DNA of 44,615 nt from Deltaproteobacteria bacterium. Lineage in GTDB: Bacteria > Desulfobacterota > GWC2-55-46 > DRME01. The first letter of the stretch is position 1. Each line of letters begins with the position of its first letter. The notes under the pieces were generated by a model. It ran no database searches, was not told the DNA's origin, and saw only the letters and a list, made by a program, of their open reading frames with translations. The position numbers and the translations under genes are program-made. This document shows positions 1-38,523 of the stretch, piece after piece. The stretch lies in NCBI GenBank assembly GCA_011375175.1, contig DRME01000045.1, positions 1-44,615 of the forward strand. The letters run 5' to 3'.

Positions 1-169
1 CCACGTTTCCCCCAGACCCCCTTCAAAGACTTTTAATTCCCTGCGGATCATCCCGATTTTGCAGGCAAAATCGGGATGATCCGCAGGGCGTTAAAAGTTT
101 TTGGAGGGAGTCTGAGGGAACCTTTTTACAAAAAGGTTCCCTCAGGGTAATTAATCAGAGTTTCCTTAG
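1..169. repeat. E element copy 1 (nested palindrome, cut by window edge)
   Basis: Right-hand part of an E element in inverted orientation. It holds the centre palindrome at 39-88 (two 22-nt complementary arms, loop GCAGGC), the inverted spacers, hp1 at 112-145 (GAGGGAACC paired with GGTTCCCTC), and the terminal repeat ending TTTCCTTAG at 161-169. The terminal repeat contains the stop codon of the minus-strand rqcH gene at 166-168. The hp3 arm lies beyond the left window edge. Confidence 0.85.
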
Positions 170-3054: not shown

Positions 3055-3259
3055 TTACCCTGAGGGAACCTTTTTGTAAAAGGGTCACAGACCCACGGTT
3101 CCCTCAGACTCCCTCCAAAAACTTTAACGCCCTGCGGCCCATCCCGATTTTGCTTGCAAAATCGGGATGAGCCGCAGGGAATTAAAAGTCTTTGAAGGGG
3201 GTCTGGGGGAAACTTTCTACAGAAAGTTTCCCCCGGTGAAATAAATCGGAGCTTCATTA
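3050..3259. repeat. E element copy 2
   Basis: Near-complete element between the M29 gene and the redox operon. hp1 at 3060-3107 has an extra small hairpin (GGGTCACAGACCC) in its tip. The centre palindrome is 3130-3179, with one mismatch near the GGCCC/GAGCC position. hp3 is 3203-3235. The right terminal repeat is AAATCGGAGCTTC at 3243-3255. The left terminal repeat is shortened to TGATTACC and includes the M29 stop codon. Confidence 0.88.
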
Positions 3260-7191: not shown

Positions 7192-7495
7192 GGGAAAACT
7201 CTGACTGATTACCCTGATGGAACCTTTAACGCCCTGCGGATCATCCCGATTGTGCTTGCACAATCGGGATGATCCGCAGGGAATTAAAAGTCTTTGAAGG
7301 GGGGCTGGGGGAAACTTTCTACAGAAAGTTTCCCCCGGAACTGCTTTGGGGGAGACTTTCTGTAGAAGGGCCATAGGCCCGCGTTCCCCCGTACCCTCTC
7401 GTATGTTATCCGGATCTTCGGCGGCGGCGGATGCGGGCGGGAGCCCCCCTTCAGACTTGAAAAAGTTTTCCCCGGGGTGATTGATCAGAGCTTAT
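7192..7495. repeat. E element copy 3 (hp1 deleted, hp3-like unit duplicated)
   Basis: Left terminal repeat GGGAAAACTCTGACTGATTACC (7192-7213), then hp1 missing with the spacer fused directly. Centre palindrome 7232-7281 has a paired change: the tip reads GATTGTG...CACAATC instead of GATTTTG...CAAAATC. hp3 is 7305-7337. A second hp3-like hairpin (7348-7390) carries the inner GGGCCATAGGCCC hairpin. A GTATGTTATCCGGATCTTCGG module follows at 7401-7421, but the A hairpin that should come next is deleted. The right end is GATCAGAGCTTA. Confidence 0.82.
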
Positions 7496-14889: not shown

Positions 14890-15071
14890 CTTCTCCCCTG
14901 CGGTGTTCGTGATCGATTGGTGATTTTTAGAACCAACACAAACGGTCAGGGAGCCTGCTCTGTCCGTGGCCGGCGTATCCCCCTGCGGGAAGGCCGAAAG
15001 CGGTTACCGGGCGCCCACCTATGAACCACGGGTTCATAAATACTTTCGACACGGCACAGGCGGGGGAGAAC
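14890..15071 (+). ncRNA. ssrS: 6S RNA
   Basis: About 182 nt between zapA and the 5-formyl-THF cyclo-ligase gene, the classic ssrS position. The closing stem pairs CTTCTCCCCTGCGGTGTTCGTG (from 14890) with CACGGCACAGGCGGGGGAG (to about 15070), leaving small internal bulges. Internal 6S-like landmarks include GGGAGCCTGCTCTGTCCG, GGGCGCCCACC, and the hairpin TGAACCACGGGTTCA at 15023-15037. 6S RNA binds the sigma-70 holoenzyme through an open central bubble and represses transcription in stationary phase. Exact ends are estimates from the stem. Confidence 0.9.
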
Positions 15072-18320: not shown

Positions 18321-18637
18321 GAGTCCCCCCCCGGTTCCTCGCCCCATCGTATGTTATTCGGATCTTCGGCTGTACCGGGGAGTTCGGCCCGCGCCAGGCG
18401 GGATTTTTACGCCTTTGCGGCCCGAACTCCCCGGCACAGCCCCCCGAGGCAGCCGGCGTGGGCAGGACACCCCCTTCAAAGACTTTCAATACGAGTTGGT
18501 TTCCCCCTGTCTTGCGGAGCAAGACAGGGGGAAACCAACTCGCGTTAAAAGTTTTTGGAGGGAGTCTGAGGGAACCGGGGGTCTGTGACCCTTTTACAAA
18601 AAGGTTCCCTCAGTGCAATAAATCAGAGTTTCCTTAG
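18321..18637. repeat. E element copy 4 with A hairpin 2 and a different centre palindrome
   Basis: Between ymdB and tyrS. It begins with an hp3 remnant (AGTCCCCCCCCGG) and the ATGTTATTCGGATCTTCGG module (18351-18369). A hairpin 2 follows at 18368-18441 in the orientation that reads CCCGCGCCAGGCGGGATTTTT on the plus strand. The centre is a perfect 51-bp palindrome (18492-18542, arm GAGTTGGTTTCCCCCTGTC) unrelated to the usual CCCTGCGGATC centre. hp1 with an inner GGGTCTGTGACCC, and the terminal repeat AATCAGAGTTTCCTTAG, close the element. Confidence 0.88.
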
Positions 18638-19920: not shown

Positions 19921-20137
19921 GAATCGGAAGTCTTTGAAGGGGGCATCTTCCCGCCGTCCACGGCCCGCCCGGTGTCCCCGGCGTCGCGTGGGAGGTTCGG
20001 ACCGCAAAGGCGTAAAAAAACCCCGCCTGGCGCGGTCCGAACCTCCCACGCGACGCCGGGCGGCTATGAACAACACATGGAACACATGGGGGTGAAAGGC
20101 GGACCTGCGGCCCTTATGCAGAAGGCTTCTCCCCCAT
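19921..20137. repeat. E element remnant 5 with A hairpin 3
   Basis: Between convergent tyrS and lpxH. Spacer GGAAGTCTTTGAAGGGGGC (19924-19942) is followed by A hairpin 3 at 19977-20060: a perfect arm pair around GGCGTCGCGTGGGAGGTTCGG, with T7 after the core stem on the minus strand. An hp3 arm (GGCCCTTATGCAGAAGGC, 20110-20127, then TTCTCCCCC) overlaps the last codons of lpxH. Both terminal repeats are missing. Confidence 0.78.
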
Positions 20138-21750: not shown

Positions 21751-22697
21751 TCCTTTTCATCAGTCTCTTCGGCCGCCGCCTCTTCGTCGAATACCCGTCT
21801 GGCGGCGGCGCAGTCATCCCTTATGCGCGCCGCGAGCTCTTCCAGCGAGTCGAAACGCCGCTCGTCGCGCAGCCTCCTCAGGAAGCCCACGGCGACCCTG
21901 GAGCCGTAGAGGTCGCCGTCGAAGTCGAGGATGTGGACCTCCACGCCGAGGTCCTTTCCTCCCGCCGTGGGGGCGGTGCCCACGTTGGCCACGCCGCGGC
22001 GCGCCGTCGGGCCGCACTCCACCGCCGCGGCGTATACGCCGCGGCGCGGCAGGAGCTCGGTCTCGACCGCGATGTTGGCTGTGGGGAAGCCGAGCCTTGC
22101 GCCGAGCCCCTTGCCCCTCACCACCTCGCCGTAGACGGTGAAGGGCCTTGTCAGAAGGCGGGCGGCCTCGCCGACGCGCCCGTCGCCGATGAGACGCCGT
22201 ATGCGCGAGCTGCTCACCACCTCGCCGTCCACGGTGAGCGCCCCTATGACGGTGACGGCAAAGCCCAGTTCGCGGCCCAGTTCGGCGAGCTGCTCCACCG
22301 TACCGCCCTTTCCCTTGCCGAAGGAGAAGTCGTGGCCCACCATGACCTCGCGCACGGCGAGCCTCTCGACGAGCTCGTCCACCACGAACCGGCGCGGCTT
22401 CTGGGAGGCGAACTCCTTGGTGAAGTCGGCGAGCACGAGGTAGTCGATGCCGAGCCCGCCGATGAGCCGTATCTTCTCCTCCAGCGGCAGGATGAGCGGC
22501 GGACTCTTCTCCGGGGCCACCACCTTGAGCGGGTGGGGCTCGAAGGTGTAGACCGTGGACGGCGCGCCGAGCTCGCGGGCCCTCGTCCGCACCCGCTCCA
22601 GTATGCGGCGATGACCGAGGTGTATGCCGTCGAAGTTGCCGAGCGTCACGACAGAACCCCTGGCCGCCGCAGACTCCTCTCTCTTCAGTACCTCCAT
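21726..22697 (-). CDS. ribF: Bifunctional riboflavin kinase/FMN adenylyltransferase
   Basis: 323 aa. N-terminal FAD synthetase domain with TLGNFDGIHLGHRRIL (about 18-33) and SSSRIRRLI (about 160). C-terminal riboflavin kinase domain with GKGLGARLGFPTANI (about 187) and VANVGTAPTAGG (about 225). It makes FMN then FAD. First gene of the minus-strand ribF-aroE-lpxH set. AAGGA precedes the ATG by 9 bp. No FMN riboswitch is seen in the upstream 50 bp before E copy 6. Confidence 0.96.
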   Translation of the reverse strand: MEVLKREESAAARGSVVTLGNFDGIHLGHRRILERVRTRARELGAPSTVYTFEPHPLKVVAPEKSPPLILPLEEKIRLIGGLGIDYLVLADFTKEFASQKPRRFVVDELVERLAVREVMVGHDFSFGKGKGGTVEQLAELGRELGFAVTVIGALTVDGEVVSSSRIRRLIGDGRVGEAARLLTRPFTVYGEVVRGKGLGARLGFPTANIAVETELLPRRGVYAAAVECGPTARRGVANVGTAPTAGGKDLGVEVHILDFDGDLYGSRVAVGFLRRLRDERRFDSLEELAARIRDDCAAARRVFDEEAAAEETDEKECGDGWAR

Positions 22698-22734: not shown

Positions 22735-23061
22735 CGCTTCCGATTTGTTGCGCCGAGGGAACCTTTTTACAAAGAGGAAACGGCCCTCGGCTGTCGGGCC
22801 GCGCCAGGCGGGATCTTTTTACGCCTTTGCGGCCCGACAGCCCGCGGGCCGTAAAGGATTGAGAAGGGCTTCCCAGCCCCCACGGTTCCCTCAGACTCCC
22901 TCCAAAAACTTTTAACGCCCTGCGGTTCATCCCGATTTTGCTTGTAAAATCGGGATGAACCGCAGGGAATTAAAAGTCTTTGAAGGGGTCTGGGGGGAAC
23001 GTGGGCCTATGGCCCTTCTGCAGAAAGTTTCCCCCAGGGTAAATAAGCGGAGCTTCCTTAG
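22735..23061. repeat. E element copy 6 with A hairpin 4 nested in hp1
   Basis: Between ubiB and ribF. Left terminal repeat CTTCCGATTTGTTG, then hp1 opened by A hairpin 4 (22780-22852) and closed again at GGTTCCCTC (22884-22892). The A core reads as a terminator on the plus strand (GGCGGGATCTTTTTACG). Centre palindrome 22918-22967 shows a paired change (CGGTTCATC with GATGAACCG). hp3 carries an inner GGGCCTATGGCCC. The right terminal repeat GCTTCCTTAG ends 8 bp from the ubiB stop. Confidence 0.88.
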
Positions 23062-27045: not shown

Positions 27046-27202
27046 TTGGGGGGGAGCTTTTCGCAGAAGGGTCATGGACCCGTCCTTTCCCGCTCCCCCT
27101 TTCGTATGCTGCCCGTCTAATGCGGCGGTCCATGGGAGGTTCGGCCCGCAAGGGCGTAAAAAAAAACCGCCTGGCGCGGGCCGAACCGCCGCCGCGGCCG
27201 GA
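27046..27202. repeat. E element remnant 7 with A hairpin 5
   Basis: Between the divergent rnr and gatC starts. A decayed hp3 (GGGGGGAGC... with inner GGGTCATGGACCC) runs to about 27100. CGTATGCTGCCCG, a decayed form of the ATGTTATTCGG module, comes next. A hairpin 5 is at about 27134-27195: the inner arms GGTTCGGCCCGC/GCGGGCCGAACC are intact, while the outer arms no longer pair fully. On the minus strand its core is CCGC-GCCAG-GCGG followed by nine T. No terminal repeats remain. Confidence 0.72.
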
Positions 27203-29070: not shown

Positions 29071-29437
29071 TTGCTTGCCCTGAGGGAACCTTTTTGTAAA
29101 GGGTCACAGACCCACGGTTCCCTCAGACTCCCTCCAAAAACTTTTTGTTTGCTCTTCGAGCCGCGTTGGTTCTCATGATCGCTGAGGAAACGAGGTTCTT
29201 CAGCCCAAGTTAAAAGTCTTTGAAGGGGGTCTGGGGGAAACGTGGGCCTATGGCCCTTCTACAGAAATTTCCCCCAGAGTATCGGGGGGCTGTGCCGGGG
29301 GTTCGGGCCGCAAAGGCGTAAAAAAATCCCGCCTGGCGCGGCCCGAACCCCCGGTACGGCCGAAGATACGAATAACATACGATGGGGCAGGGGGGGAGAC
29401 GCGGGCCTGTGGCCCTTCTTCAGAAATTTTTCCCCGG
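29068..29437. repeat. E element copy 8, inserted between gatA and gatB, with A hairpin 6
   Basis: The left terminal repeat TGATTGCTTGCCCTG supplies the gatA stop. hp1 with inner GGGTCACAGACCC follows. The centre is not a palindrome but a segment of about 70 bp (29146-29211, TTGCTCTTCGAGCCGCG...), which recurs inverted in E copy 10. hp3 with inner GGGCCTATGGCCC is at about 29233-29276. A hairpin 6 (29288-29361) has its terminator reading on the minus strand. The inverted module CGAATAACAT and a second hp3-like arm end right at the gatB ribosome site. Confidence 0.86.
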
Positions 29438-30896: not shown

Positions 30897-31180
30897 CTCG
30901 GCCGAGGGAACTCTTTTGATGATCCTGGGGGAAACGTGGGTCTGTGACCCTTTTACAAAAAGGTTCCCTCAGGGTAATGAATCAGAGTTTCCTTTGCCTG
31001 GGGGCGCTCCACCTGGAGGTTCGGGCCGCAAGGGTGTAAAACGATCCCGCCCGGCGCGGGCCGAACCTCCAGGTGGAGCGCCCCCACATGCGCACAACAG
31101 GCAAAGGGGGGCCGGGGGAACGCGGCCCCGTGAACCTTCTGCAGGAAGTCTCCCCCCGGAGCAGTCAGTCAGAGCTTTCC
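30894..31180. repeat. E element copy 9 with A hairpin 7
   Basis: Between convergent gatB and the Nudix gene. It includes a hybrid hairpin in which an hp3 left arm (GGGGGAAAC, 30928-30936) is joined to an hp1 right arm (AAAAAGGTTCCCTCAG, 30956-30971), with inner GGGTCTGTGACCC. Next come the terminal repeat AATCAGAGTTTCC and A hairpin 7 (30999-31086). The A7 arms pair over about 25 bp, and an outer stem CCTTTGCCTG/CAGGCAAAGG (30991-31000 and 31098-31107) adds more. A final hp3-like unit and terminal repeat AGTCAGAGCTTTCC end 7 bp before the Nudix stop. Confidence 0.84.
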
Positions 31181-35150: not shown

Positions 35151-35626
35151 GGGAAGCTCCGATTGACTACCCTGGGGGAAACTTTCTGAAGAAGGGGCAC
35201 AGGCCCGAGGGCCATAGGCCCACGTTTCCCCCCTGCCCCTATGTTATTCGGATCTTCGGCCGTACCGGGGGTTCGGCCCGCGCCAGGCGGGGTTTTTTTT
35301 ACGCCTTTGCGGCCCGAACCCCCGGTACGGCCCCCACGAGGCAGCCGGCGCGGACAGGACGTCCCCTTCAAAGACTCTTAACTTGGGCTTAAGGAGCTCG
35401 TTGCCTCGGCGATCATGAGAGCCAACGCGGCTCGAAGAGCAAACAAAAAGTTTTTGGAGGGAGTCTGAGGGAACCTCGGGGGCTGGGAAACCTCTGTCAA
35501 TCCTTTACGGCCCGCGGGCTGTCGGGCCGCAAAGGCGTAAAAAATCCCGCCTGGCGCGGGCCGACAGCCAAGGGCCGTTTCCCCTTCGTAAAAAGGTTCC
35601 CTCGGCGCGATAAATCAGAGTCTCCT
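35151..35626. repeat. E element copy 10, composite with A hairpins 8 and 9
   Basis: The largest copy, between the TMTC-like gene and the DHH-CBS gene. Terminal repeat GGGAAGCTCCGATTGACTACC, an hp3 enlarged by two inner hairpins, and the ATGTTATTCGGATCTTCGG module (35241-35259) come first. A8 (35258-35332) has its terminator reading on plus, with T8. Next is an inverted copy of the E8 centre segment (about 35389-35448). The opened hp1 holds A9 (35507-35578) with terminator reading on minus. The AAATCAGAGTCTCC end closes it. A9 with its hp1 flanks is a near-identical inverted copy of the A4 block in E copy 6. Confidence 0.88.
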
Positions 35627-38310: not shown

Positions 38311-38523
38311 CTAAGGAAACTCTGATTAATTACCCTGAGGGAACCTTTTTGTAAAAAGGTTCCCTCAGACTCCCTCCAAAAACTTTTAACGCCCTGCGGA
38401 TCACCCCGATTTTGCTTGCAAAATCGGGGTGATCCGCAGGGAATTAAAAGTCTTTGAAGGGGGGCTGGGGGAAACTTTCTACAGAAAGTTTCCCCCAGTG
38501 TAATAAATCAAAGCTTCCCTAAG
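38311..38523. repeat. E element copy 11 (reference, complete)
   Basis: 213 bp. Left end CTAAGGAAACTCTGATTAAT (38311-38330). hp1 (38334-38367) is a perfect 14-bp-arm palindrome. Centre palindrome 38392-38441 has the paired change ATCACCCC/GGGGTGAT. hp3 is 38465-38498. The right end reads, in reverse complement, CTTAGGGAAGCTTTGATTTA. The two halves align base for base over about 105 nt (roughly four-fifths identical), so the whole element is also one large palindrome. No target-site duplication is evident. Confidence 0.93.

Follow-up and report, generated by a model that had tools for sequence, protein, structure and literature searches.

The DNA analysed here, referred to as the window, is contig C45 (44,615 nt) of a deltaproteobacterial genome of 2.49 Mb in 138 contigs, which is 98.6% complete. 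It contains five copies of a 50-bp palindrome, at 39-88 (reverse strand) and at 3130-3179, 7232-7281, 22918-22967 and 38392-38441 (forward strand), all of which carry CCCTGCGG...CCGCAGGG. A preliminary description of the window had located these copies correctly and reported that they differ by paired changes, in which both arms are altered so that they still match; the changes quoted for the copies at 7232, 22918 and 38392 are exact. They are T-A to G-C at pair 21 in the third copy (private among 116 counted length-50 centres), A-T to T-A at pair 9 in the fourth and T-A to C-G at pair 13 in the fifth. The second copy had been named as the only one with an unpaired difference. It does have an unpaired C/A at pair 10 beside a paired change to C-G at pair 9, but the fourth copy is also unpaired, with G/T at pair 23 (GCTTGT). 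The first copy, near the contig start, has the loop CT in scaffold orientation and lies in the opposite orientation by its flanks. The observation is sound, with small corrections, one of which concerns its extent: the 50-bp palindrome is real and forms the middle of a longer, MITE-like nested palindrome of about 204 bp.

In the fifth copy the whole element spans 38315-38518 (forward strand). It consists of a terminal inverted repeat (TIR), a left hairpin, a linker, the centre, a second linker, a right hairpin and a TIR, and it is flanked by the target-site duplication CTAA at 38311-38314 and 38519-38522. The TIRs read GGAAACTCTGATT. The left side hairpin CTGAGGGAACC...GGTTCCCTCAG (38335-38368) and the right side hairpin CTGGGGGAAAC...GTTTCCCCCAG (38465-38498), both on the forward strand, served as internal control. 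As a single strand this copy is predicted to fold into the left hairpin, the centre hairpin on a stem of the two imperfect linkers, and the right hairpin, at -80.3 kcal/mol versus -24.8 +/- 3.3 for shuffled sequences (z -16.8). The two linkers are not alike, which allows the orientation of a copy to be read independently of its centre.

The same scaffold carries several centre types: type I, which is the palindrome of the five copies, type II (CGAGTTGGTTTCCCCCTGTTTTGCC...), type III and type IV. A type II centre with the paired change TCTTGC/GCAAGA lies at 18491-18543 on the reverse strand (linkers 18470-18564), and type IV centres are found, linkers included, at 29128-29229 (forward strand) and 35362-35463 (reverse strand). 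Types I to III are alike next to the tip (..GATTTTGC or ..TGTTTTGC), which suggests that they are diverged forms of one hairpin. The window also contains nine copies of a second hairpin repeat family with a constant interior, GCAAAGGCGTAAAAA..CCGCCTGGCGC, and variable outer arms (1763-1818, 18378-18434, 19991-20046, 22788-22844, 27135-27190, 29297-29352, 31015-31070, 35267-35324 and 35515-35570; 73 copies in 758 kb), and a 6S RNA at 14892-15070 (RF00013, 82 bits). This 6S RNA is the window's only Rfam match at the gathering score; the element itself gave nothing but hairpin matches below threshold.

Copy number and genomic context

The genome contains 136 copies with exact ends, and a pattern of the linkers only finds 271 scaffolds; the set extracted for comparison holds 128 copies, 118 of them with exact ends. 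A core-blind sample, in which copies were not chosen by their palindrome, was obtained by a linker-only search of 758 kb (15 contigs, window included). It gave 83 matches, one a duplicate, and hence 82 elements, of which 70 are interior and 12 lie near contig ends. In position the elements are intergenic: ORFs, called by a simple GC3 rule, contain 8 of 70 element midpoints but 81% of random points. Among TIR pairs, 18 of 47 have an exact 4-bp target duplication versus 3.5 expected from shuffled pairing, which shows past transposition. Some TIR pairs in the 758-kb sample are shorter, at about 74 and 88 bp; they too have 4-bp target duplications and could represent reduced forms of the element. 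Contig C54 has, at 22215-22300, an otherwise normal centre next to which the end of the right arm and its flank are tandemly duplicated (14 bp).

The 61 elements that could be placed between genes lie in divergent (11), convergent (5) and tandem (45) contexts. A role as intrinsic terminator was rejected, as the elements are not depleted between divergent genes (11/61) and the stem is followed by AATTAAAAG, which has no T-run. Concerning hairpin-processing enzymes, SbcD (TIGR00619) had no match in this 98.6% complete genome in one search, versus matches in 13 of 14 control genomes. A genome that has lost SbcCD, the hairpin nuclease, could be expected to tolerate such elements.

Paired changes in the centre hairpin

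The 116 length-50 type I centres were partly gathered by exact-end patterns, and the argument therefore rests on the core-blind sample. From its 70 interior elements we set aside four type IV centres, one type III centre and the four of 65 type I and II centres with another length (2/31 and 2/34). The remaining 61 centres show 18 distinct paired and 16 unpaired states, versus 3 and 37 in the accompanying side hairpins (Fisher p=1.9e-5; shared variants make the cells non-independent), which were recognised in 67 (left) and 56 (right) of the 70. The 29 type I centres (length 50) contribute 11 paired and 8 unpaired derived states, the 32 type II centres (length 51) 7 and 8. States private to a single copy are divided 12 paired to 16 unpaired in the centre and 2 to 26 in the side hairpins (p=0.004). 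When right-arm letters were shuffled among copies, a control that ignores the relatedness of copies, type I gave a mean of 2.7 distinct paired states (maximum 7) versus 11 observed, and type II a mean of 1.0 (maximum 3) versus 7.

The paired excess proposed in the preliminary description is thereby confirmed, far above independent double hits, and since the side hairpins of the same elements are without it, it is a property of the long-armed centre hairpin with its tip of 1-3 nt and not of every hairpin in the element. The preliminary description had also held that unpaired differences as common as paired ones across many copies would speak against it. Among private changes of this genome, 12 paired and 16 unpaired, that is nearly what is found. 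As a yardstick it is too strict, because far less than one paired case would be expected from independent double hits: for 1464 pairs at the side-hairpin rate of 0.018 the expectation is about 0.16 (1464 x 0.018 squared / 3). Chance double hits are ruled out by the core-blind paired and unpaired rates.

Other changes also involve both arms. One copy of other length (contig C88, position 9362) lacks one base from both arms, a paired deletion, and another (contig C27, position 20762) has a loop lengthened by arm-copied sequence, GCTTCAAGC, as though copying of the tip had continued into the opposite arm. Per site, one-sided states are rarer in the centre than in the side hairpins.

Inversion of the tip

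Relative to the fixed flanks the tip is inverted about half the time. The 116 length-50 type I copies have TT in 55, AA in 54 and other tips in 7, and TA or AT in none. Type II tips (n=32) are CAG in 11, CTG in 11, CAA in 4 and TTG in 3, with three singletons. Both orientations occur within five type I arm haplotypes (four if interior copies only are used), so that at least as many flips took place, if each haplotype arose once. The bases just outside the core stay AACG and AATT in 108 of 128 copies; the 2-bp mismatch there is kept in nearly all copies and is rarely homogenised, and any copying between the arms must therefore stop inside the core or be selected against. In one copy (contig C43, position 2314) the inner block as a whole is inverted relative to the outer linkers. 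We rejected reciprocal exchange between inverted copies, since it would give symmetric flanks and none of the 82 core-blind elements has them (83 matches: AB 45, BA 38).

Short-read assembly might imitate both patterns, if its graphs merged an arm with the reverse complement of the other arm and left the loop in random orientation. The fragmentation of this genome, with many of its contigs ending inside elements, would suit such an artefact. Graph simplification should, by our reasoning, favour the common allele and erase private changes, and the pattern is also present in interior copies and in G009, a single-contig genome of 2.75 Mb whose weight here depends on how it was sequenced, so that we regard this explanation as very improbable.

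Sister genomes and orthologous loci

Searched with the 214-bp element, 32 of 48 genomes from this order give a match; copy numbers there are lower bounds, as at most 16 candidates were scored per genome. The side hairpins and the right linker are near identical across genera. The centres differ copy by copy and consist of TTCC, about eight variable pairs and CCCCC-loop-GGGGG: 79 sister copies from 21 genomes (82 less 3 duplicate loci) have 74 distinct left arms, and the stem is perfect in 40. In the 76 copies that could be parsed (three of 79 could not), the first 12 pairs from the base hold 236 paired and 47 unpaired derived cells of 912, while the side hairpins hold 52 and 134. An order-wide scaffold thus carries copy-specific stems that are mostly paired. 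Each of the four Watson-Crick pairs is seen at pairs 4 to 12, and the whole centre is inverted within its scaffold in 7 of 79 copies (six of the parsed count and L281). Insertions of about 70 bp, common to several loci, are seen in the tips of the left (L282, L281, L302) and right (L284, L302) side hairpins. Named relatives from the genome scan have 41-61% protein identity only, and one of them has a related scaffold (L182:12655-12860; JACRCB010000098.1) with a much smaller centre hairpin, GTGGGC-ACA-GCCCAC, directly after the same gene as the element at window position 38315.

The unpaired sister positions are G.T in 12, A.C in 13 and other mismatches in 22 cases, and transitions and transversions stand at 129/107 for paired and 25/22 for unpaired changes (p=0.87). 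If paired changes arose through G·U intermediates in an RNA, G·T should prevail on one strand and transitions should be the more frequent among the paired changes. This route was rejected because neither is found, with the reservation that mixed transcription directions could hide a one-strand G·T excess.

These data bear on selection for the folded form as well. If the hairpin were functional, as DNA in transposition or protein binding or as RNA, one-sided mutations would be purged and compensated ones would persist. This agrees with a scaffold that is nearly constant across genera while the flanks at one locus are 85-90% identical, with the intergenic position of the elements and with the scarcity of one-sided states in the centre. 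It would have to act on each of hundreds of dispersed copies and leaves the loop inversion unexplained; moreover, G.T is not in excess, transversion-type compensations are not depleted, the side hairpins next to these centres show no paired excess and no Rfam family is reached at threshold. We consider selection of the fold an unlikely main cause, though one with an appreciable chance.

At 11 loci the flanking sequence shows two or three species to carry the element in a shared position, giving 17 comparisons. Ortholog pairs of the same orientation differ in the stem by 24 two-sided and 11 one-sided changes, 8 of the latter from L261/L339, where a stem indel puts the arms out of register. Pairs of inverted orientation differ by 35 two-sided and 6 one-sided changes, a further inverted pair (L324/L333) being left out of the count. 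Linker differences between orthologs number 25 in 578 positions. Where three species share a locus, the comparisons depend on one another, and ortholog pairs give end states only, not single events. At L263/L308 (G009 and G035) the 7-nt tip is GGAAGCT in one genome and its reverse complement AGCTTCC in the other; apart from one missing G, the rest of the element is identical. In at least one comparison at 5 of the 11 loci the whole element is inverted relative to the genes; opposite orientations between species are found at L284/L290/L301, L281/L302/L292, L254/L337/L257, L288/L291 and L285/L293. We read these cases as pointing to inversion at three nested levels, of the tip, the centre and the whole element. 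Alternatively, the whole-element inversions could be independent re-insertions at the same site.

Pairing might also be kept in a few master copies, or whole hairpins might be swapped by conversion or re-insertion, so that differences arrive as a block. At orthologous loci, blocks of adjacent pairs do differ, and since some stems, such as TGAGAAAACCCCC, recur in several sister copies, stem differences between orthologs could be whole-hairpin exchanges. In the genome of the window, type I copies fall into shared subfamilies (ATCATC, ATCACC, TTCATC, TTCCTC), and the target duplications attest to transposition. Against this stand 11 paired changes that are private to one copy among 70 interior type I copies, with no donor among the copies examined, and the diversity of left arms in the sister genomes. 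By itself exchange neither makes new paired stems nor flips the loop, and we judge it quite improbable as the general cause.

Probable hairpin-templated strand switching

Of the two causes that the preliminary description offered, selection on the folded form keeps the small probability given above, and self-templating is favoured because of the tip inversion without intermediates, the paired one-base deletion, the missing G.T excess and the contrast with the side hairpins. We think it probable that hairpin-templated strand switching is responsible. During DNA synthesis, or during processing of a cruciform or hairpin, the polymerase would switch strand inside the hairpin and copy one arm from the other arm or from the opposite parental strand. 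A one-sided mutation would then be erased, or written into both arms, in one step; a switch spanning the tip would invert the loop, and the arms would stay paired while their sequence drifts. A single step would account for the pairing, the inversions and the paired deletion, and likewise for the need for long arms and a short tip, and we infer that a single strand-switch process, acting in place, lies behind both pairing and inversion.

Several points weigh against strand switching. All events are inferred from copies. Some two-sided differences between orthologs may be whole-hairpin exchange, as the recurring sister stems indicate, and selection would equally give fewer one-sided states in the centre than in the side hairpins. 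The genome is in 138 contigs, often ending in these elements. Furthermore, the second hairpin family, with a spacer of about 30 nt, is likewise rich in paired changes (126 derived cells are paired and 110 unpaired, and one conserved G/G accounts for 42 of the unpaired) and is less well explained by a short-spacer mechanism alone.

A more far-reaching and speculative reading, which we hold only tentatively, is that of a conserved, order-wide mobile scaffold with a hypervariable centre, whose stem would be rewritten as a pair by self-templating, giving every copy a paired stem of its own, and which would invert at three nested levels. Covariation would then be a product of mutation and not of selection on the fold, and the absence of SbcCD may permit it.

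Covariation is normally taken as proof of a selected RNA fold. In this family, covariation accompanies loop inversion across hundreds of natural replicates, with the side hairpins as an internal control. Whether compensatory changes can arise by mutation alone can thereby be tested directly. Should the mutational reading prove right, short-loop palindromes in bacterial genomes would call for a DNA-level null in tests of covariation.

Comparison with known systems

The element shows the features by which MITEs are recognised: it is short and non-coding, with TIRs, fixed-length 4-bp target duplications and many intergenic copies. IS5-like MITEs use the 4-bp target YTAR. Unlike MITEs, the element has three internal hairpins and exchangeable centres. 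A search for one DDE transposase family, PF01609, had no match in the genome, while the control search matches 9 of 14 genomes.

REP, REPIN and BIME sequences, as far as they are described in the parts of the sources consulted, are likewise dispersed extragenic palindromes in mosaic arrangement (PMC8266576, PMC3733652, PMC2817692). An assignment to REP/REPIN was rejected: the Y1 transposase (PF01797) is absent from the genome, with 5 of 14 genomes matching in the control search, and the foot of the palindrome has no GTAG/CGTC tag, reading AACG-CCC...GGG-AATT in 108 of 128 copies. In contrast to these families, a conserved scaffold carries a changing stem. The small inversions flanked by hairpins in chloroplasts and birds are reportedly also associated with stem-loops and in part recurrent (PMC12928735, PMC3123225), but they concern organelle or eukaryotic loci and not a repeat family.

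Quasipalindrome template switches leave two signs, both of which are found here: two-sided changes in excess of independent double hits, and inversion of the spacer between intact arms. In yeast genes, according to the sections consulted, arm homogenisation and spacer inversion occur together, including an AA/TT flip of two bases (PMC8604942), and E. coli reporters revert through such a strand switch (PMC7202029). These systems share with the element inverted repeats with short spacers, reverse-complemented loops and recurrent flips; their arms become perfect in one event, as is proposed here. As presented there, each case is a single locus in a coding gene or reporter whose ancestor is known or whose revertants were selected, whereas the events here are deduced from hundreds of dispersed copies and from a whole bacterial order. 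Template switching has further been proposed to create and maintain the stems of RNA hairpins (PMC8794818). There, too, compensatory changes come from copying between strands and loop inversion marks the interstrand route; in the material consulted, that system comprises rRNA and microRNA genes with very rare loop inversions, whereas the loops described here are near 50:50. No description of the element was found in the open-access literature searched. While the mechanism has been described in other systems, the element family and the extent of its record appear to be new.
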